In this document: positions 30,652 to 42,511 of the stretch, one piece after another
How positions within the stretch are numbered: the stretch's first letter is position 1
Layout of the letters: each line of letters opens with the position of its first letter
Position numbers and translations under genes: made by a program
Source of the DNA: Emcibacter sp. SYSU 3D8
GTDB lineage: Bacteria > Pseudomonadota > Alphaproteobacteria > SMXS01
Length of the DNA stretch: 64,000 nucleotides
Direction of reading: 5' to 3'
Assembly (NCBI RefSeq): GCF_039655875.1
Contig: NZ_JBBYXK010000004.1
Location: forward strand, 1 to 64,000
Notes under the pieces: model-generated
The model's database searches: none
The model's input: the letters and a program-made list of their open reading frames with translations, nothing else
What the model was told of the DNA's origin: nothing

Positions 30652-31950
30652 ATGAACGCGATTGTCAGGGTGACGGAAGACGTCTGGACGCCGGCCGCGA
30701 AAGCGCCGGAACCTGATCTGGGCACGGATATCATTCCGGCCAGCCGCTATACGTCGAAAGAGTTCATGCAGCTCGAATGGGAGCGCATGTGGACCAAGAC
30801 GTGGCTGATGGGCTGCCGCGAGGAGGAAATCCCCGAGACCGGCGATTACGTCACCACCGAGATCGGCCCTGAATCGCTGCTGATCGTGCGCGGCGAGGAC
30901 GGCAAGGCGCGCACCTTCTACAACGTCTGCAACCACCGGGGAAACCAGGTCAAGTTCGACAAGACCGGCAATTCCCGCACCCTGCAGTGCGCCTATCACT
31001 TCTGGGAGTATGACCTGACCGGCCGGTTGGTCAGCGTCCCCGACGAGCAGGATTTTGCCCAGGGCTGCCCCAGGGATCAGCTCAGCCTCAAGACCATCAA
31101 CACCGATACATGGGGCGGTTTCGTGTGGTTCAACCTGAACCCGGACGCCGAACCGCTGCTGGATTATCTGGGCATCATTCCCGAGCACCTGGACGCCTAC
31201 CATTTCGACAAGATGGCCATGACGTCGAACTGGACCGTCGAATGGGATTGCAACTGGAAAGCATCGGTTGACGCGTTCAACGAGGTCTATCACGTCCAGT
31301 GCATCCACCCGGAACTGCTCTACAACAACGACGACGTGAACATCCAGATCGACCTGTACGACAAGCACAGCCGTTACCTGATCCCCTATCAGGCGTGCAG
31401 CCCGCGGCTCGGCTACCTTCCGGAAGAAGTCCCGGAGATCGTCGCCGAATACATGACGTCCATCGGCATGGATCCGGCGCCATGGAATGGCCGGGTGCCC
31501 GAAATCCGGCGCGCGGTCAGCAAGTTCAAGCGCGAGAACCAGGACAAGCTGGGGATGGATTATTCCGACCTGAACGACGATCAGGTCGTGGACGACTACC
31601 ACTATTACATCTACCCCAACATCACGATGAACATCTTTGCGGAATGGATGCTGTTCTTCCGCCAGCGGCCGCACGAAACAGATCCCAACAAGATGTACTA
31701 CGACGTGCAGTTCTATAATTACGTGCCCAAGGGCAAGCCGCGCCCGCCGCTGCCCGACCACGACCAGTTCAAGCACGGCGAGAAGTCGCTGGGTCTGGTG
31801 CTCGACCAGGATTCGGTGAACCTGCCGCACGTCCAGAAGGGCACCAATTCGTCGGCGTTCAAGGGGCTGTGGATCAGCCACCAGGAGCGCCGCATCCGCC
31901 ACATGCACAAGACGCTGATGGACTATATCGACGGGGAGAACGGAAAATGA
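30652..31950 (+). CDS. Rieske non-heme iron oxygenase, large (alpha) subunit
   Basis: 432 residues. The Rieske [2Fe-2S] ligands are Cys93-x-His95 (CNHRGNQ) and Cys113-x2-His116 (CAYHFWEY). The mononuclear iron site is visible at DAFNEVYHVQCIHPE (His214 and His219), with an acidic ligand expected in the DDYHYYIYPN region. Such enzymes hydroxylate aromatic or aliphatic rings, or demethylate, using electrons from a reductase; none is encoded nearby. CGGGGAGACTGAGCG precedes the start. The stop overlaps the VOC gene (ATGA), so the two are coupled. The substrate is unknown. Confidence 0.92.
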   Translation: MNAIVRVTEDVWTPAAKAPEPDLGTDIIPASRYTSKEFMQLEWERMWTKTWLMGCREEEIPETGDYVTTEIGPESLLIVRGEDGKARTFYNVCNHRGNQVKFDKTGNSRTLQCAYHFWEYDLTGRLVSVPDEQDFAQGCPRDQLSLKTINTDTWGGFVWFNLNPDAEPLLDYLGIIPEHLDAYHFDKMAMTSNWTVEWDCNWKASVDAFNEVYHVQCIHPELLYNNDDVNIQIDLYDKHSRYLIPYQACSPRLGYLPEEVPEIVAEYMTSIGMDPAPWNGRVPEIRRAVSKFKRENQDKLGMDYSDLNDDQVVDDYHYYIYPNITMNIFAEWMLFFRQRPHETDPNKMYYDVQFYNYVPKGKPRPPLPDHDQFKHGEKSLGLVLDQDSVNLPHVQKGTNSSAFKGLWISHQERRIRHMHKTLMDYIDGENGK

Positions 31951-36802: not shown

Positions 36803-37537
36803 ATGCTGCTCGAAAACCGCACAATCCTTGTCACCTTCGCCAGCCACTGGGCCGGCCCGGAAATTTGCGACAGCCTGCTCGCCGAGGGGGCGTCGGTCGT
36901 CTGCCAGGATCCCACATTCGCCGACAGTGCGCGGGCCGAGGCGTTCGTCGCCGGCCGCGCCTACCTGACCGCCATCGCCAGCACGGCGCCGGCCGACATC
37001 GTGGCCGAGGCGCTCACCGCGCTGGGCCATCTCGACGTGCTGATCAACAACGATGCGCATCCGGCGATCCGTGCGCCCATCGAAAGCGCCGATCCGCAGG
37101 ACTTTCGCGACGGCATCGAGGCGCTGATGGTGTTTCCGTTCATGATGGCCGCTGCCGCGGTGCCGCACATGAAGGCGCGCAAGTCGGGCAAGCTGCTGTT
37201 CCTCACCTCGGCCTCGGCGCTCAACGGCCTGGCCAATTACTCCATGTACGCCGCGGCGCGGGCGGGCGCCAACGGCATCGTCAAGTCGCTGGCGCGCGAG
37301 CTGGGCCGGGACAACATCCAGGTCAACGCCATCGCCGCAAACTACATCGAGAACCCGGACTATTTCCCGCCCGAGCTGATCGCCAACAAGGACGCCTACG
37401 CCAAGATGATGAAGAACATCCCGCTGGGCCGTCTGGGCAAGCCGCAGGAGGCGGCGCATCTGGTGGCGTTCTACTGCTCGGACCGCAGCGATTTCATCAC
37501 CGGCAACATCATGCCGTTCGCAGGCGGCTGGGCTTAG
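36803..37537 (+). CDS. Probable halohydrin dehalogenase (SDR-related)
   Basis: 244 residues. The glycine-rich NAD(P) motif of SDR enzymes is missing; instead there is T11-FASH-W16-A-G18, like the halide-pocket signature T-x4-F/Y-x-G of halohydrin dehalogenases, with Trp as the aromatic residue. The catalytic set is Ser136, Tyr149 and Arg153 (SASALNGLANYSMYAAARAGA), with Arg in place of the SDR Lys and the same 13- and 4-residue spacing as HheC. Other matches to that family are VVCQDPTF, LDVLINND, AANYIENPDYFPPE and ITGNIMPFAGGW. Such enzymes make epoxides from vicinal haloalcohols with release of halide, and open epoxides with nucleophiles. GGGGAAGATC precedes the ATG. Confidence 0.8.
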   Translation: MLLENRTILVTFASHWAGPEICDSLLAEGASVVCQDPTFADSARAEAFVAGRAYLTAIASTAPADIVAEALTALGHLDVLINNDAHPAIRAPIESADPQDFRDGIEALMVFPFMMAAAAVPHMKARKSGKLLFLTSASALNGLANYSMYAAARAGANGIVKSLARELGRDNIQVNAIAANYIENPDYFPPELIANKDAYAKMMKNIPLGRLGKPQEAAHLVAFYCSDRSDFITGNIMPFAGGWA

Positions 37538-37565: not shown

Positions 37566-37835
37566 ATGGTACCAATCCACATGAAGCGACGCCATAGAGC
37601 CACGCTGGAGCTAATCTTCGCCCGCCCTGTGACCGGTTCGATCCGTTGGACCGAGATCGAGGCACTGTTTGTGGCTCTCGGGGCGGAAGTCAGCGAACGG
37701 GAGGGTTCGCGGATCGGCGTATTCCTGTTCGGCGAAGTGCGTGTCTTTCATCGCCCGCATCCTTCACCGGATACGGATAAGGGCGCGGTTGCCGGCATTC
37801 GGAAATGGCTGGACGAACATGGAGTAAGGCCATGA
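37566..37835 (+). CDS. hicA: HicA family toxin (mRNA interferase)
   Basis: Up to 89 residues; an internal ATG at 37581 (MKRRHRATLELIFARP) is the more usual HicA start. The family core reads IRWTEIEALFVALGAEVSEREGSRIGVFLFGEVRVFHRPHPSPDTDKGAVAGIRKWLDEHGV, with the catalytic histidine in VFHRPHP. Its stop overlaps the hicB start (ATGA). HicA cleaves mRNA when not held by HicB. It lies just after the halohydrin-dehalogenase-like gene. Confidence 0.9.
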   Translation: MVPIHMKRRHRATLELIFARPVTGSIRWTEIEALFVALGAEVSEREGSRIGVFLFGEVRVFHRPHPSPDTDKGAVAGIRKWLDEHGVRP

Positions 37836-38164
37836 ACAACGTGATCGAGATCTATGGGGAGAAGGCGGTCATCACCTTCGATCCGGATATTCAGATGCTG
37901 CGCGGTGAGTTTGTCGGCCTGAACGGCGGTGCGGACTTCTATGCCGAAAGCGTCCGCGATCTGATCGAGGAAGGCCATAGATCGCTGGCTGTTTATCTGG
38001 AGATGTGCAGAGAAAAGGGTATTGAACCAGGCCGGAAATTTTCCGGCAAGTTCAACGTCCGCCTCGACCCCGAAGACCATGCAGCGGCGGTCATTGCAGC
38101 GGCGGCGGCGGGCAAAAGCCTGAATGAATGGATCGTTGAGACGATCAAGGAAGCCGCGGCGTAG
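37832..38164 (+). CDS. hicB: HicB family antitoxin
   Basis: 110 residues. The N-terminal HicB-like domain (VITFDPDIQMLRGEFVGLNGGADFYAESVRDLIEEGHRSLAVYLEMCREKGIEP) binds the toxin. The C-terminal FNVRLDPEDHAAAVIAAAAAGKSLNEWIVETI is a ribbon-helix-helix DNA-binding segment for autoregulation. It is translationally coupled to hicA. The pair is complete with no visible damage. Confidence 0.92.
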   Translation: MNNVIEIYGEKAVITFDPDIQMLRGEFVGLNGGADFYAESVRDLIEEGHRSLAVYLEMCREKGIEPGRKFSGKFNVRLDPEDHAAAVIAAAAAGKSLNEWIVETIKEAAA

Positions 38165-38697: not shown

Positions 38698-39182
38698 GGC
38701 CAGCAGGCGATGTCGGCGATGCTGTAGTCGCCCGCCAGGTATCCGGTCTTGCCGAGCTGGGTGTCCATCACCGTCAGCAGGCGCCTGGCCTCCCTTGTGT
38801 AGCGCTCCAGCGGATAGGCGTCGGCGACCGGTGCGTAGCGGATGAAGTGGTGAGCCTGGCCGTGGAGGGGGCCGATACCGGCCATCTGGAACATCAGCCA
38901 GGACAGGGCGCGGTGCCGGCCCTGCAGGTCAGCGGGCAGCAGCATGCCGGTCTTTTCCGCCAGATAGATCAGCACCGCCCCGGATTCGAACACGGTGCAG
39001 CCCGTCTCCGTGTCGATGATGGCGGGCAGCTTGCCATTGGGGTTGATCGCCTCCAGCCCAGGCCGCCAGCTTTCGGCCTCCAGCAGGTTGTAGGGGATCA
39101 CCCGGTAGGGCAGGCCGGTCTCCTCCAGCATGATGGAGACCTTGTGCCCGTTGGGCGTGGCGACCGTATGAAGGTCGATCAC
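38673..39182 (-). CDS. Glutathione S-transferase, C-terminally truncated
   Basis: 169 residues from GTG 39182, whose GTGA overlaps the sulfotransferase stop. IDLHTVATPNGHKVSIMLEETGLPYRVIPYN, NPNGKLPAIID and FESGAVLIYLAEKTG show a complete N-terminal thioredoxin-like domain with the glutathione-binding cis-Pro and ES motif. The helical domain ends abruptly at YSIADIACWPWIRAARR, 40-50 residues short of usual GSTs. It is therefore probably a damaged gene. The translational overlap shows it was once made together with the sulfotransferase. Confidence 0.75.
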   Translation of the reverse strand: MIDLHTVATPNGHKVSIMLEETGLPYRVIPYNLLEAESWRPGLEAINPNGKLPAIIDTETGCTVFESGAVLIYLAEKTGMLLPADLQGRHRALSWLMFQMAGIGPLHGQAHHFIRYAPVADAYPLERYTREARRLLTVMDTQLGKTGYLAGDYSIADIACWPWIRAARR

Positions 39183-40078
39183 AACTTGCCCGTGGCCAGC
39201 CAGCGGGCGCAGTCCTCGCCCAGCTGCTCGCGGGCCGTGGCTTCGTAGCGGGCGCTGTCCTCGGCGGTCAGGGTGTCGCGCCAGCGGCCGTTGACACCCT
39301 TGTTGATGAAGGTGGCCGCGCCGCCGTCCCAGAACACGCCGCCTAGCGGCGCCGACTTGGCGGCGTTCGCCTTCATGTAGTCGAAACCGCAATGCTCGAC
39401 GATGGCGGGGAAATGGTTCTCGTCGATGGCGATATCGAGGAAGCCGGCCATGCGCCGGATCTCGCCGGGCATGTCGCGCTTGAGGTCGTCGAAATGGATC
39501 AGCAGCACGTTGGGGAGATGGCGGATTTCCCACCATGACCGGATGTTCCCCCAGAACGGCCAGAACGGGTGGCCGTCGCGGTCCATCCAGTCGAGGAAAT
39601 ATTGCCGGATTGATTCCGGCGGCCGTTCGATCGGCGGCCCGACCCGGCCCGGCGCGTCATTCAGCATGTCGTACCAGGTCTGGTTGGCGTTGGCGTGGTG
39701 GTTGTACATGCTCCACACCACGTCGCGGCCGTCGCGGCCGATATAGATGTATTTGGCCTGTGGCGAGAACACCAATGCATCGACCGGCAGATGGGTCTTC
39801 AGGAAGCGCCGGTGGGTCTGCGCCTCGATCGCGGGCAGCTTGACCTCCTTGGGCGGCACCCGCAGATCGACCCAGGGCGACATCTCGCCCACATCCACGT
39901 CCGCCGATCCGTTGAACACCAGCTGGCCGACGATCTGCTGCGTCCAGGTGGTGCCCGATTTGCCGTAGGTGCCGACGATGATGTCGCCGTCGCGAAAATT
40001 GAAATCGTTCCACACCGTCGAATCGAAGTGATGGTTCTGGAATTCGCGCGTCTTTTGCGGCCAGGTCGGATCGTTCAT
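39179..40078 (-). CDS. PAPS-dependent sulfotransferase (cytosolic type)
   Basis: 299 residues. It would transfer sulfate from PAPS to a hydroxyl or amine. The 5'-phosphosulfate loop is TYGKSGTTWTQQI (Lys40), the probable catalytic histidine is in FLKTHLP (His96), the 3'-phosphate region is YIGRDGRDVVWSMYNHH, and FINKGVNGRWRD is the conserved C-terminal PAPS-binding loop. This is the Sulfotransfer_1 family of animal aryl/steroid sulfotransferases, uncommon in bacteria. It sits 14 bases after a VOC-like gene and overlaps a GST, which suggests xenobiotic conjugation. The acceptor is unknown. Confidence 0.92.
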   Translation of the reverse strand: MNDPTWPQKTREFQNHHFDSTVWNDFNFRDGDIIVGTYGKSGTTWTQQIVGQLVFNGSADVDVGEMSPWVDLRVPPKEVKLPAIEAQTHRRFLKTHLPVDALVFSPQAKYIYIGRDGRDVVWSMYNHHANANQTWYDMLNDAPGRVGPPIERPPESIRQYFLDWMDRDGHPFWPFWGNIRSWWEIRHLPNVLLIHFDDLKRDMPGEIRRMAGFLDIAIDENHFPAIVEHCGFDYMKANAAKSAPLGGVFWDGGAATFINKGVNGRWRDTLTAEDSARYEATAREQLGEDCARWLATGKL

Positions 40079-40092
40079 GGGCGCGGTACCTT

Positions 40093-40557
40093 TCAGGCGG
40101 CGCTGGCGGGTGACAGGAAAAGCTTCTCGAAATTCTCGATGGTGGCAAAGCCGAGATACTCGGCCTGGAACGCCGGCGTCAGAATTTCGAGCATGTAGAG
40201 ATTATCAACCCACAATTCGATCACGTGGAAGGGACCGCGGTCGTGGGTTTCGGTGCGCCAGCCTTCACGCTGGCCGATGGCGTGCACCTCGGCCTCGGAC
40301 CGGTCGACGCCGATCGCCAGATGAGCCTCCGACGGCGCTGCGGCGTGCCGCCGCTCGACCTGGGGGCCGCCCTCGCCGGGCAGCAGGACCTGGCCGGATG
40401 GATAGAATTCCACGGCTGTTCCCTTGTCGTCGCCCTTGATGGCGATGAACGAATCGGGAAAGACTGGAAAGGGCATCGACCGGCCCCTCCAGAGTTCGGC
40501 AAGCACACGGGCCGCCCGCTCGGGATCCCGTGACGGAAACGATGCGTGAAACAGCAT
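40093..40557 (-). CDS. VOC-like protein
   Basis: 154 residues from ATG 40557 (CAGGGGGTATCA site). MLFHASFPSRDPERAARVLAELW opens with a beta strand and helix as in glyoxalase/VOC modules, with EAHLAIGVDRSEAEVHAIGQREGW and FHVIELWVDNLYMLEIL later. The metal-ligand pattern is incomplete (His5, His97-like, Glu), so function is unclear. It is the first gene of a VOC-sulfotransferase-GST string with short or overlapping junctions. Confidence 0.65.
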   Translation of the reverse strand: MLFHASFPSRDPERAARVLAELWRGRSMPFPVFPDSFIAIKGDDKGTAVEFYPSGQVLLPGEGGPQVERRHAAAPSEAHLAIGVDRSEAEVHAIGQREGWRTETHDRGPFHVIELWVDNLYMLEILTPAFQAEYLGFATIENFEKLFLSPASAA

Positions 40558-40723: not shown

Positions 40724-41353
40724 CTACGCCTGCGCGCTTGGGCGGCCGCTGACGGCCGCGTACCAGCGCTGTAGATTGCCTTGATCCTCGCCGATGCGCG
40801 CCTTGATGGTCCGTGCGAAATCGATGGCGACCATGGCGGTGATGTCGGCGATGCTGTAGCGCTCGCCGGCCACATACTCGGTCTCGCCCAGCCGCTGCTC
40901 CAGCAGCACGAGGAAATTGGCGAAGCGCACCTTGCCGCGTTCGGCCAGTTCGGGAATCTGGGCGAAATCGGCCGGACCGGTGACGCTGCGATCCTTGAAG
41001 AACGGGCTGCTGTTGCGAAAGCCCTCGGCGACGGCGGCAAAGCCGTGCTGCTCGACGCGGCGATCCCACATCATCACCAGAGCACGCTCCAGCGGGTTGC
41101 GGCCGCACAGCGGCGGGTCCGGATAGACCTCTTCGAGATAGCGGCAGATGGCCGTGCTCTCGGTGATGATGGTGCCGTCGTCCAGCACCAGCGACGGTAC
41201 CTCGGCCAGGGGATTGATCCGGCGATAGTCGTCGTTCAGCTGGGCCCTCGAGCCCAGGTCAACCTCGATCCGGGGGATGTCGAGGCCCTTCTCGGCAACG
41301 AAAACCCGGACGCGGCGCGCATTGGGCGCCATCTTGAAGTCATACAGCTGCAT
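40724..41353 (-). CDS. Glutathione S-transferase family protein
   Basis: 209 residues, full length. N-terminal thioredoxin fold (MQLYDFKMAPNARRVRVFVAEKGLDIPRIEVDL; NPLAEVPSLVLDDGTIITESTAICRYLEEVYP) and C-terminal helical domain (YVAGERYSIADITAMVAIDFAR, WYAAVSGRPSA). The Ser/Tyr-like catalytic position lies in MAPNARRV. GGAGGACACC precedes the ATG. It lies upstream of, and in the same direction as, the VOC-sulfotransferase-GST genes and is divergent from an SDR. Confidence 0.92.
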   Translation of the reverse strand: MQLYDFKMAPNARRVRVFVAEKGLDIPRIEVDLGSRAQLNDDYRRINPLAEVPSLVLDDGTIITESTAICRYLEEVYPDPPLCGRNPLERALVMMWDRRVEQHGFAAVAEGFRNSSPFFKDRSVTGPADFAQIPELAERGKVRFANFLVLLEQRLGETEYVAGERYSIADITAMVAIDFARTIKARIGEDQGNLQRWYAAVSGRPSAQA

Positions 41354-41599: not shown

Positions 41600-42511
41600 A
41601 TGGCCATCAGGTTCGACGGACGGGTCGCGATTGTCACGGGTGCGGGCGGCGGCGTGGGCAGGGCCCATGCCATGGAACTGGCGCGCCGCGGCGCGAAGGT
41701 CGTGGTCAACGATCTCGGCGGCGCCATCGACGGCAGCGGCGGATCGAGCGCGGCGGCGGATGCTGTGGTGGCCGAGATCAAGGCCGCGGGCGGCGAGGCC
41801 ATGTCCGACGGCTGCAGCGTCACCGACGAGGGCGGCGTCGCCAACATGGTCCAGAAGATCATGGACAGCTGGGGCCGCATCGACATCCTGATCAACAATG
41901 CCGGCATCCTGCGCGACAAGACCTTCGGCAAGATGGACATCGCCGATTTCCGGGCGGTGCTGGACGTGCATCTGATGGGCTCGGTGATCTGCTCGCGCGC
42001 CGTCTGGCCGATCATGCGCCAGCAGCAATATGGGCGCATCGTCGTCACCACCTCGGTGACCGGCCTGCACGGCAATTTCGGCCAGACCAATTACGGCGCG
42101 GCCAAGGCCGGCCTTTACGGCTTCATGAACGTGGCCAAGCTTGAAGGCGAGCGCGACAACATCCGCGTCAACACCATCTCGCCCTTCGCGCTGACCCGCA
42201 TGACCGAAAGCATGATCACCGGCGAGCGCGCGGCCATGTACGCGCCCGAACTGGTGTCGCCTGCAGTCATGTATCTGGTCAGCGAGGACGCGCCCACCGG
42301 CATGATCCTCAGCGCCGGCGCGGGCACCGTCTCGCGCGCCGCCATGGTCGAGACCCAGGGCGTCAACTTCGGCATGAACATCACCGCCGAGGATGTTGCC
42401 GCCCATATCGACGAGATCGGCGACATGTCGACCGCCAGGCCCATGCGCGATGCAACCGAGCAGAGCAAGAAGAATGCGGAGACGCTGGCCAAGGCGCCGG
42501 TGAAAGGCTGA
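41600..42511 (+). CDS. SDR family oxidoreductase, similar to multifunctional-enzyme type 2 hydroxyacyl-CoA dehydrogenases
   Basis: 303 residues. TGAGGGVGRAHAMELARRGAKVVVNDLGG is the cofactor motif, with the insert GGAIDGSGGSSAAADAVVAEIKAAGG typical of (3R)-hydroxyacyl-CoA dehydrogenase domains of MFE-2. Further motifs are NNAGILRDKTFGKM, the catalytic TTSVTGLHGNFGQTNYGAAKAG, and a long C-terminal tail. It probably oxidises a 3-hydroxyacyl-CoA, perhaps from steroid or fatty-acid side chains. AGGAAAAATA precedes the start. A strong terminator follows. Confidence 0.92.
   Translation: MAIRFDGRVAIVTGAGGGVGRAHAMELARRGAKVVVNDLGGAIDGSGGSSAAADAVVAEIKAAGGEAMSDGCSVTDEGGVANMVQKIMDSWGRIDILINNAGILRDKTFGKMDIADFRAVLDVHLMGSVICSRAVWPIMRQQQYGRIVVTTSVTGLHGNFGQTNYGAAKAGLYGFMNVAKLEGERDNIRVNTISPFALTRMTESMITGERAAMYAPELVSPAVMYLVSEDAPTGMILSAGAGTVSRAAMVETQGVNFGMNITAEDVAAHIDEIGDMSTARPMRDATEQSKKNAETLAKAPVKG

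Follow-up and report, generated by a model that had tools for sequence, protein, structure and literature searches.

A halohydrin dehalogenase-like gene with a genus-specific tryptophan in its pocket motif

Halohydrin dehalogenases (HHDHs) are homotetramers that dehalogenate beta-halohydrins reversibly and without NAD(P), so that they both make and open epoxides. They are recognised by two motifs (PMC4989007): a pocket motif, T-x4-F/Y-x-G (motif 1), which stands where short-chain dehydrogenases (SDRs) have TGxxxGxG, and a catalytic motif, S-x12-Y-x3-R (motif 2). The aromatic residue of motif 1 is part of the motif used for database mining of HHDH biocatalysts, and in the text available of PMC11976700 the three motif 1 residues are said to appear highly conserved in nature, natural variants being reported at the threonine. 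According to the same text, Phe12 of HheC lines the nucleophile pocket and touches the halide directly, its substitutions alter activity, stability and selectivity, and the corresponding Tyr of HheB does not contact chloride. The HheC variants given there as active in both reactions are F12G, F12A, F12C, F12S, F12Q, F12H and F12Y; F12W is not on this list and is not mentioned by name in the available text. In HheG, significant activity was kept only by Y18F, and the authors note that Y18 mutants of HheG made by others were active in whole cells (PMC11976700). Our literature search covered open-access papers, with subscription journals outside its scope, and within it we came across neither a description of an HHDH with Trp at this position nor anything on subtypes E and F, nor a paper on the "Dehalogenation enzyme" 6a41 (released 2019), the best solved relative of the protein described below.

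The window, which is the whole stretch of 64,000 nucleotides analysed here from Emcibacter sp. SYSU 3D8, contains an open reading frame starting with ATG (36803..37537, + strand), whose product of 244 amino acids has an SDR fold; from the ORF list, PDB search, tree and model we call it a halohydrin dehalogenase-like gene. The first-pass annotation had described it as an SDR-like gene that lacks the glycine-rich cofactor motif, and the ORF and its translation confirm this: as in HHDHs, the glycine-rich motif is lost, and TFASHWAG stands where SDRs have TGxxxGxG. This stretch, read from the sequence as the pocket-lining motif 1 (T11-FASH-W16-A-G18; 36833..36856, +), keeps the Thr and Gly of the published pocket motif and has Trp16 (codon 36848..36850, +) at its aromatic position, opposite Phe12 of HheC in the alignment. 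Motif 2, also read from the sequence, is S136-x12-Y149-x3-R153 (37208..37261, +), with exactly the spacing published for HHDHs. The annotation was thus right about the triad and its spacing and about Trp16 at the aromatic position, and the numbering of T11, W16, G18, S136, Y149 and R153 holds. The classical SDR combination of TGxxxGxG and Y-x3-K is absent, Arg occupying the place of the catalytic Lys. Tyr-x3-Lys is found in the SDR ORFs of seven other loci of the same genome (L002-L008; 7 of 70 further matches), in one of which, L002, the script found no glycine motif.

The alignment also places the loop N180-Y181-IENPDYFPPE191 (37340..37375, +) opposite a loop of HheC that we take to run from N176-Y177 to F186-Y187, most of whose residues presumably have a role in the pocket. 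P175 and L178 of HheC are named in the available text of PMC11976700. Several segments had been put forward as family-specific; VVCQDPTF, LDVLINND and ANYIENPDYFPPE do have equivalents in HHDHs, whereas ITGNIMPFAGGW appears less specific, resembling the C-terminal segment of ordinary SDRs. All Pfam models above their curated cut-offs belong to the SDR superfamily, and the best 25 of 212 NCBIfam matches are all SDR-type and all below their curated cut-offs (top match 139 versus 215 bits), so that routine annotation would probably return "SDR oxidoreductase". Since a strict T-x4-F/Y-x-G search would miss the protein, we refer to it as a variant within the HHDH clade and not as a canonical HHDH.

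A sequence search of the PDB returned 6a41, named as a dehalogenase, as the best match over the full length (252 bits), followed by HheC- and HheA-type chains (137-149 bits) and by the D-type chains 7b73 and 8xxb, which are HheD2 and an HheD8 mutant (125-129 bits). FabG, the top chain named as an ordinary reductase, scored 97 bits, and HheB-type chains, also at 97 bits, did no better than ordinary SDRs, nor did G-type chains at 83-90 bits; as their scores fall within the SDR range, the family is not defined by sequence score alone. An IQ-TREE phylogeny of 48 rows split 44 HHDH-like rows, including six solved HHDH-family chains and leaving out subtypes E, F and G, from four SDRs with support of 100/100, although the program warned that some branches were long and that the bootstrap had not settled. 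The six rows with Trp formed one clade (100/99) inside Phe-bearing alphaproteobacterial relatives, and the B/D clade holding HheD2 and the HheD8 mutant was separate from it (99/94). Search and tree therefore agree in supporting, at the level of sequence, the expected grouping of the protein with halohydrin dehalogenases, apart from NAD(P)-dependent SDRs.

The suggestion that the protein may be a new subtype found no support. Identities between HHDH subtypes are given as below 30% in the available text of PMC4989007, and the window protein is 48% identical to 6a41 and 35% to HheC, types E, F and G being left out of this comparison; the rule itself fits loosely here, because HheC and HheA are already 34-35% identical to the window protein. 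The identity to 6a41 and the nested position in the tree speak against a new HHDH subtype, since the Trp is, as far as the aligned sequences tell, one genus-level F-to-W substitution within a known clade.

An AlphaFold2 monomer model of the protein, built from 36 sequences, had a mean pLDDT of 93.4 and a pTM of 0.91. Foldseek ranked 6a41 first (TM 0.94, 48% identity) and the HheC chains next. In VIA-align only 6a41 stood clear (Z 35.3, rmsd 1.9, 244 aligned), and the HheC chains (Z 31.7-32.4; for 1pwx Z 31.8, rmsd 2.0, 238 aligned) tied with a FabG (Z 31.5, rmsd 2.0, 234 aligned), which suggests that the modelled fold alone would not decide function. Residue by residue, 6a41 resembles the window protein in S-x12-Y-x3-R, in an NYxENPDYFPP loop and in being its best fold match, but has Phe at the aromatic position of motif 1 (TNVEKFAG). 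HheC of Agrobacterium radiobacter AD1 (1pwx, 5kwe; 34-35% identity) has the same triad spacing, a homologous N-Y loop and a fold close to that of the model, tied with FabG-type SDRs (Z 32.4 for 5kwe), but differs in Phe12 for Trp, in Pro-Phe for Ala-Leu at query positions 139-140 and in a longer pocket loop. HheD2 (7b73) and the HheD8 mutant (8xxb) share with the Trp clade GP-x-[IL]-C after motif 1 and the residues Ala139 and Leu140, and HheD2 also has SASAL at motif 2, whereas both belong to the B/D clade, carry Phe in motif 1 and are 32-36% identical to the window protein in structural alignments. As HheD2 has both GP-x-[IL]-C and SASAL, these features are not unique to the Trp clade. HheA (1zmo, 4z9f; 33-35% identity in structural alignments) has the HHDH fold and motifs, but Phe in motif 1 and a distant position in the tree on a long branch.

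The gene was found in six of seven genomes of the genus, the window's included, and all six copies read T[FS]A[ST]HWAG, the x1 position of motif 1 having changed to Phe or Ser. The orthologues are 75-86% identical to the window protein, and the triad and N-Y loop are retained in all six Trp proteins; the seventh genome (G005, 78% complete) gave no match at 1e-30. Two further genera of the family have Phe (TNVTHFAG in G007, TNVTHFVG in G008), and a third other genome of the family (G009) had no match. Pairwise dN/dS values within the genus (Nei-Gojobori, 15 pairs) were 0.10-0.34, indicating purifying selection. The agreement of six genomes and the low dN/dS rule out a sequencing error or a pseudogene, and the same Trp in orthologues from five further genomes of this genus, together with purifying selection, argues that the Trp gene is not a chance occurrence.

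A motif script was run over the fetched loci, covering 110 non-identical profile matches among the matches listed and, in the order with the nearest relatives of 6a41, 30 of 66 matched places. Among the 110 matches listed, 93 have Y-x3-R, 12 Y-x3-K and one Y-x3-Q, with four unread. Motif 1 in the 93 Y-x3-R matches listed was scored as Thr..Phe in 74, Ser..Phe in one, Thr..Tyr in two and Thr..Trp in six, nine were unscored, and the 93rd (L045) reads SNPGRFAG by eye; Ser thus replaces Thr in L039 and L045. Two of the nine unscored matches are incomplete sequences (L119, L120) and six are B/D-like with shorter spacing; reading by eye gave Phe for L055, L056, L057 and L121 and Tyr for L023, and the six B/D-like matches also include L122. 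The six Thr..Trp matches coincide with the six members of the genus, and no further HHDH-like sequence with Trp at the aromatic position was found among the matches listed. In the alignment, a distant HHDH-like row (L021, 1501-2220) shows Pro in place of the catalytic Tyr and is possibly a non-catalytic relative.

Of the 167 positions that are invariant in the genus, 23 changed on its stem, the residue there being unlike that of G007, of G008 and of G036. A13, W16, E20, I21, C22, A139 and L140 belong to this set; the three genomes compared have Pro, Val and Pro, respectively, at position 139 and Phe at position 140. Pocket segments, chosen after viewing the alignment, hold 7 of the 23 changes, which is not a significant enrichment (hypergeometric P 0.09).

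The neighbours of the gene in the window were compared with five other loci of the genus by tblastn at 1e-8. In all five, the same order was found for genes encoding a Rieske oxygenase, SnoaL, MipA, DUF445, an 84-aa CxxC protein, the HHDH and a sulfotransferase, some loci being interrupted by contig ends or insertions. Four of the five also have the glyoxalase-family gene at 31869, the GST at 40724 and the SDR at 41600, and three have the gene at 40093, which lacks a Pfam match; Rieske, glyoxalase, SnoaL, MipA, DUF445, sulfotransferase, GST and SDR are among the Pfam families nearby. The sulfotransferase gene (39179..40078, - strand; Pfam, tblastn), noted as context, lies ~1.6 kb downstream of the HHDH gene, and a match to it lies at most 1.7 kb downstream in 5/5 other genus loci, with 100 of 299 residues aligned in one of them (G002); in G007, G008 and G036, the stretches fetched that surround the gene with Phe gave no match. 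A HicA-HicB-type toxin-antitoxin pair directly follows the HHDH gene (37566..38164, +; Pfam), likewise as context, and none of the five other loci of the genus matched it at the same threshold.

We rejected a dehalogenation operon, as neither an epoxide hydrolase nor a haloacid dehalogenase is among the 20 Pfam-scanned neighbours in the window, four of which are without a Pfam match. The available text of PMC4989007 reports that only two HHDH genes share an operon with an epoxide hydrolase, which makes other physiological roles possible. Elsewhere in the window's genome (G000) there are four EHN-type epoxide hydrolase hits (contigs C1 and C4; L138-L141), none within the window, so that epoxides could be processed further; this family was matched in one of 14 control genomes. 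Haloacid dehalogenase gave no hit above the cut-off in that genome. A search with Trp_halogenase matched one 408-aa frame in two neighbouring segments (41-42 bits), a result that is uninformative because 5 of the 14 control genomes match as well. A mobile origin was also rejected on the conserved genus locus, the lack of any relative among viral contigs by tblastn and a single match among 72,556 plasmid records at 1e-30, a Microbacterium sequence of 35% identity annotated as haloalcohol dehalogenase.

We consider it likely, with a probability of roughly 0.7, that the product of the window gene is a halohydrin dehalogenase-like lyase that works independently of a cofactor and whose pocket aromatic residue is Trp in this genus; the reaction and the cofactor independence are proposed from homology to HheC. 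As in that enzyme, Ser136 and Tyr149 would hold a beta-substituted alcohol by its hydroxyl and remove the proton, Arg153 would lower the pKa of Tyr149, and the alkoxide would expel an anion (chloride, bromide or another small nucleophile) to give an epoxide, whose oxygen the same two residues would handle, in a reversible reaction. Motif 1 and the N180-Y181 loop would line the anion pocket, where Trp in place of Phe/Tyr and the nearby genus changes probably alter the size or affinity of the anion bound and keep the chemistry; Trp16 would thereby reshape this site.

A loss of halide-dependent chemistry in the Trp clade, with fold and triad now serving another conserved function, is unlikely in our judgement. 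The absence of F12W from the active HheC variants listed, the finding that, of the purified HheG variants, only that with Phe at the aromatic position stayed significantly active (PMC11976700, available text) and the further genus-specific changes that lie close to the pocket in the sequence (W16, E20, I21, C22, A139, L140) point in that direction, but the catalytic residues and N-Y loop are all retained under purifying selection, Ala139 and Leu140 also occur in 7b73 and 8xxb, and stem changes are not significantly enriched in the pocket segments.

A genuine HHDH in which Trp16 is functionally neutral, and which is indistinguishable from its Phe relatives, seems improbable to us. The change is confined to one lineage, motif 1 varies elsewhere (L039 and L045 have Ser in place of Thr) and the HheB Tyr makes no direct chloride contact, all of which would suit neutrality; the halide contact of HheC Phe12 and the effects of its substitutions on activity, stability and selectivity speak against it (both from the available text of PMC11976700). 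Just as improbable is a pocket rebuilt in this genus around Trp for an anion other than halide. One bold candidate for that anion is sulfate, an idea that comes from the sulfotransferase gene lying close downstream, both in the window and in each of the five other genus loci (one match being partial); if true, the enzyme would be a lyase that forms epoxides from beta-hydroxy sulfate esters and not from halohydrins. That the protein is an ordinary NAD(P)-dependent SDR whose motifs have degenerated we regard as very improbable, for although its significant Pfam matches and best 25 of 212 NCBIfam matches are SDR-superfamily models and the modelled fold is common to FabG-type enzymes, those NCBIfam matches stay under their cut-offs, TGxxxGxG is absent, Arg replaces the catalytic Lys, 6a41 and the HheC-, HheA- and D-type chains outscore SDR chains, and the tree separates the SDRs.

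By its sequence, then, the halohydrin dehalogenase-like gene truly belongs to the HHDH clade and shows a departure from the published pocket motif that is confined to its lineage. The natural Trp is informative because it breaks T-x4-F/Y-x-G and because F12W is not among the reported active variants of HheC. Its presence in every genus copy found, with purifying selection, suggests that the published motif rule is too narrow, and the genus offers a natural background that tolerates Trp, in which the role of the residue can be tested by W/F swaps between sister-genus orthologues.

Genome surveys showed that HHDH-like genes are not rare in Alphaproteobacteria, so the rarity that the first-pass annotation ascribed to HHDHs was wrong in scope. 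An alphaproteobacterial sample had matches in 46 of 385 genomes (E <=1e-35; window's genus included), the order with the nearest relatives of 6a41 (that of G286) in 65 of 76 and another alphaproteobacterial order (that of G151) in 27 of 40. A gammaproteobacterial sample had matches in 3 of 229 genomes at 1e-30, and a phylum-wide sample in 6 of 398; among these six, L022 is an ordinary SDR with Y-x3-K. The triad was checked in those matches that were fetched as loci, and distant HHDH types are under-counted because the query is alphaproteobacterial. Matches in most genomes of two orders argue for a native role rather than rare xenobiotic degradation.

Sir2-family and alpha-amylase-family genes lie near the HHDH gene in two families (L123 in G151, L135 in G845, L126 in G129); Pfam gave the Sir2 assignment in G151 and G129 and the amylase assignment in G151, and the remaining assignments come from clustering. 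In one family, all three genomes inspected carry a tandem HHDH-like pair (L131/G302, L132/G105, L133/G213), of which one copy has Ser-Tyr-Arg and the partner has Y-x3-Q, no motif 1 aromatic and no Asn-Tyr loop. The partner looks like a pseudo-enzyme, for which the heterotetrameric SDR BbsCD (7pcs) offers a comparison, and in G213 the pair is neighboured by genes for an ApbC/NUBPL-type NTPase and a GBBH-like_N protein.
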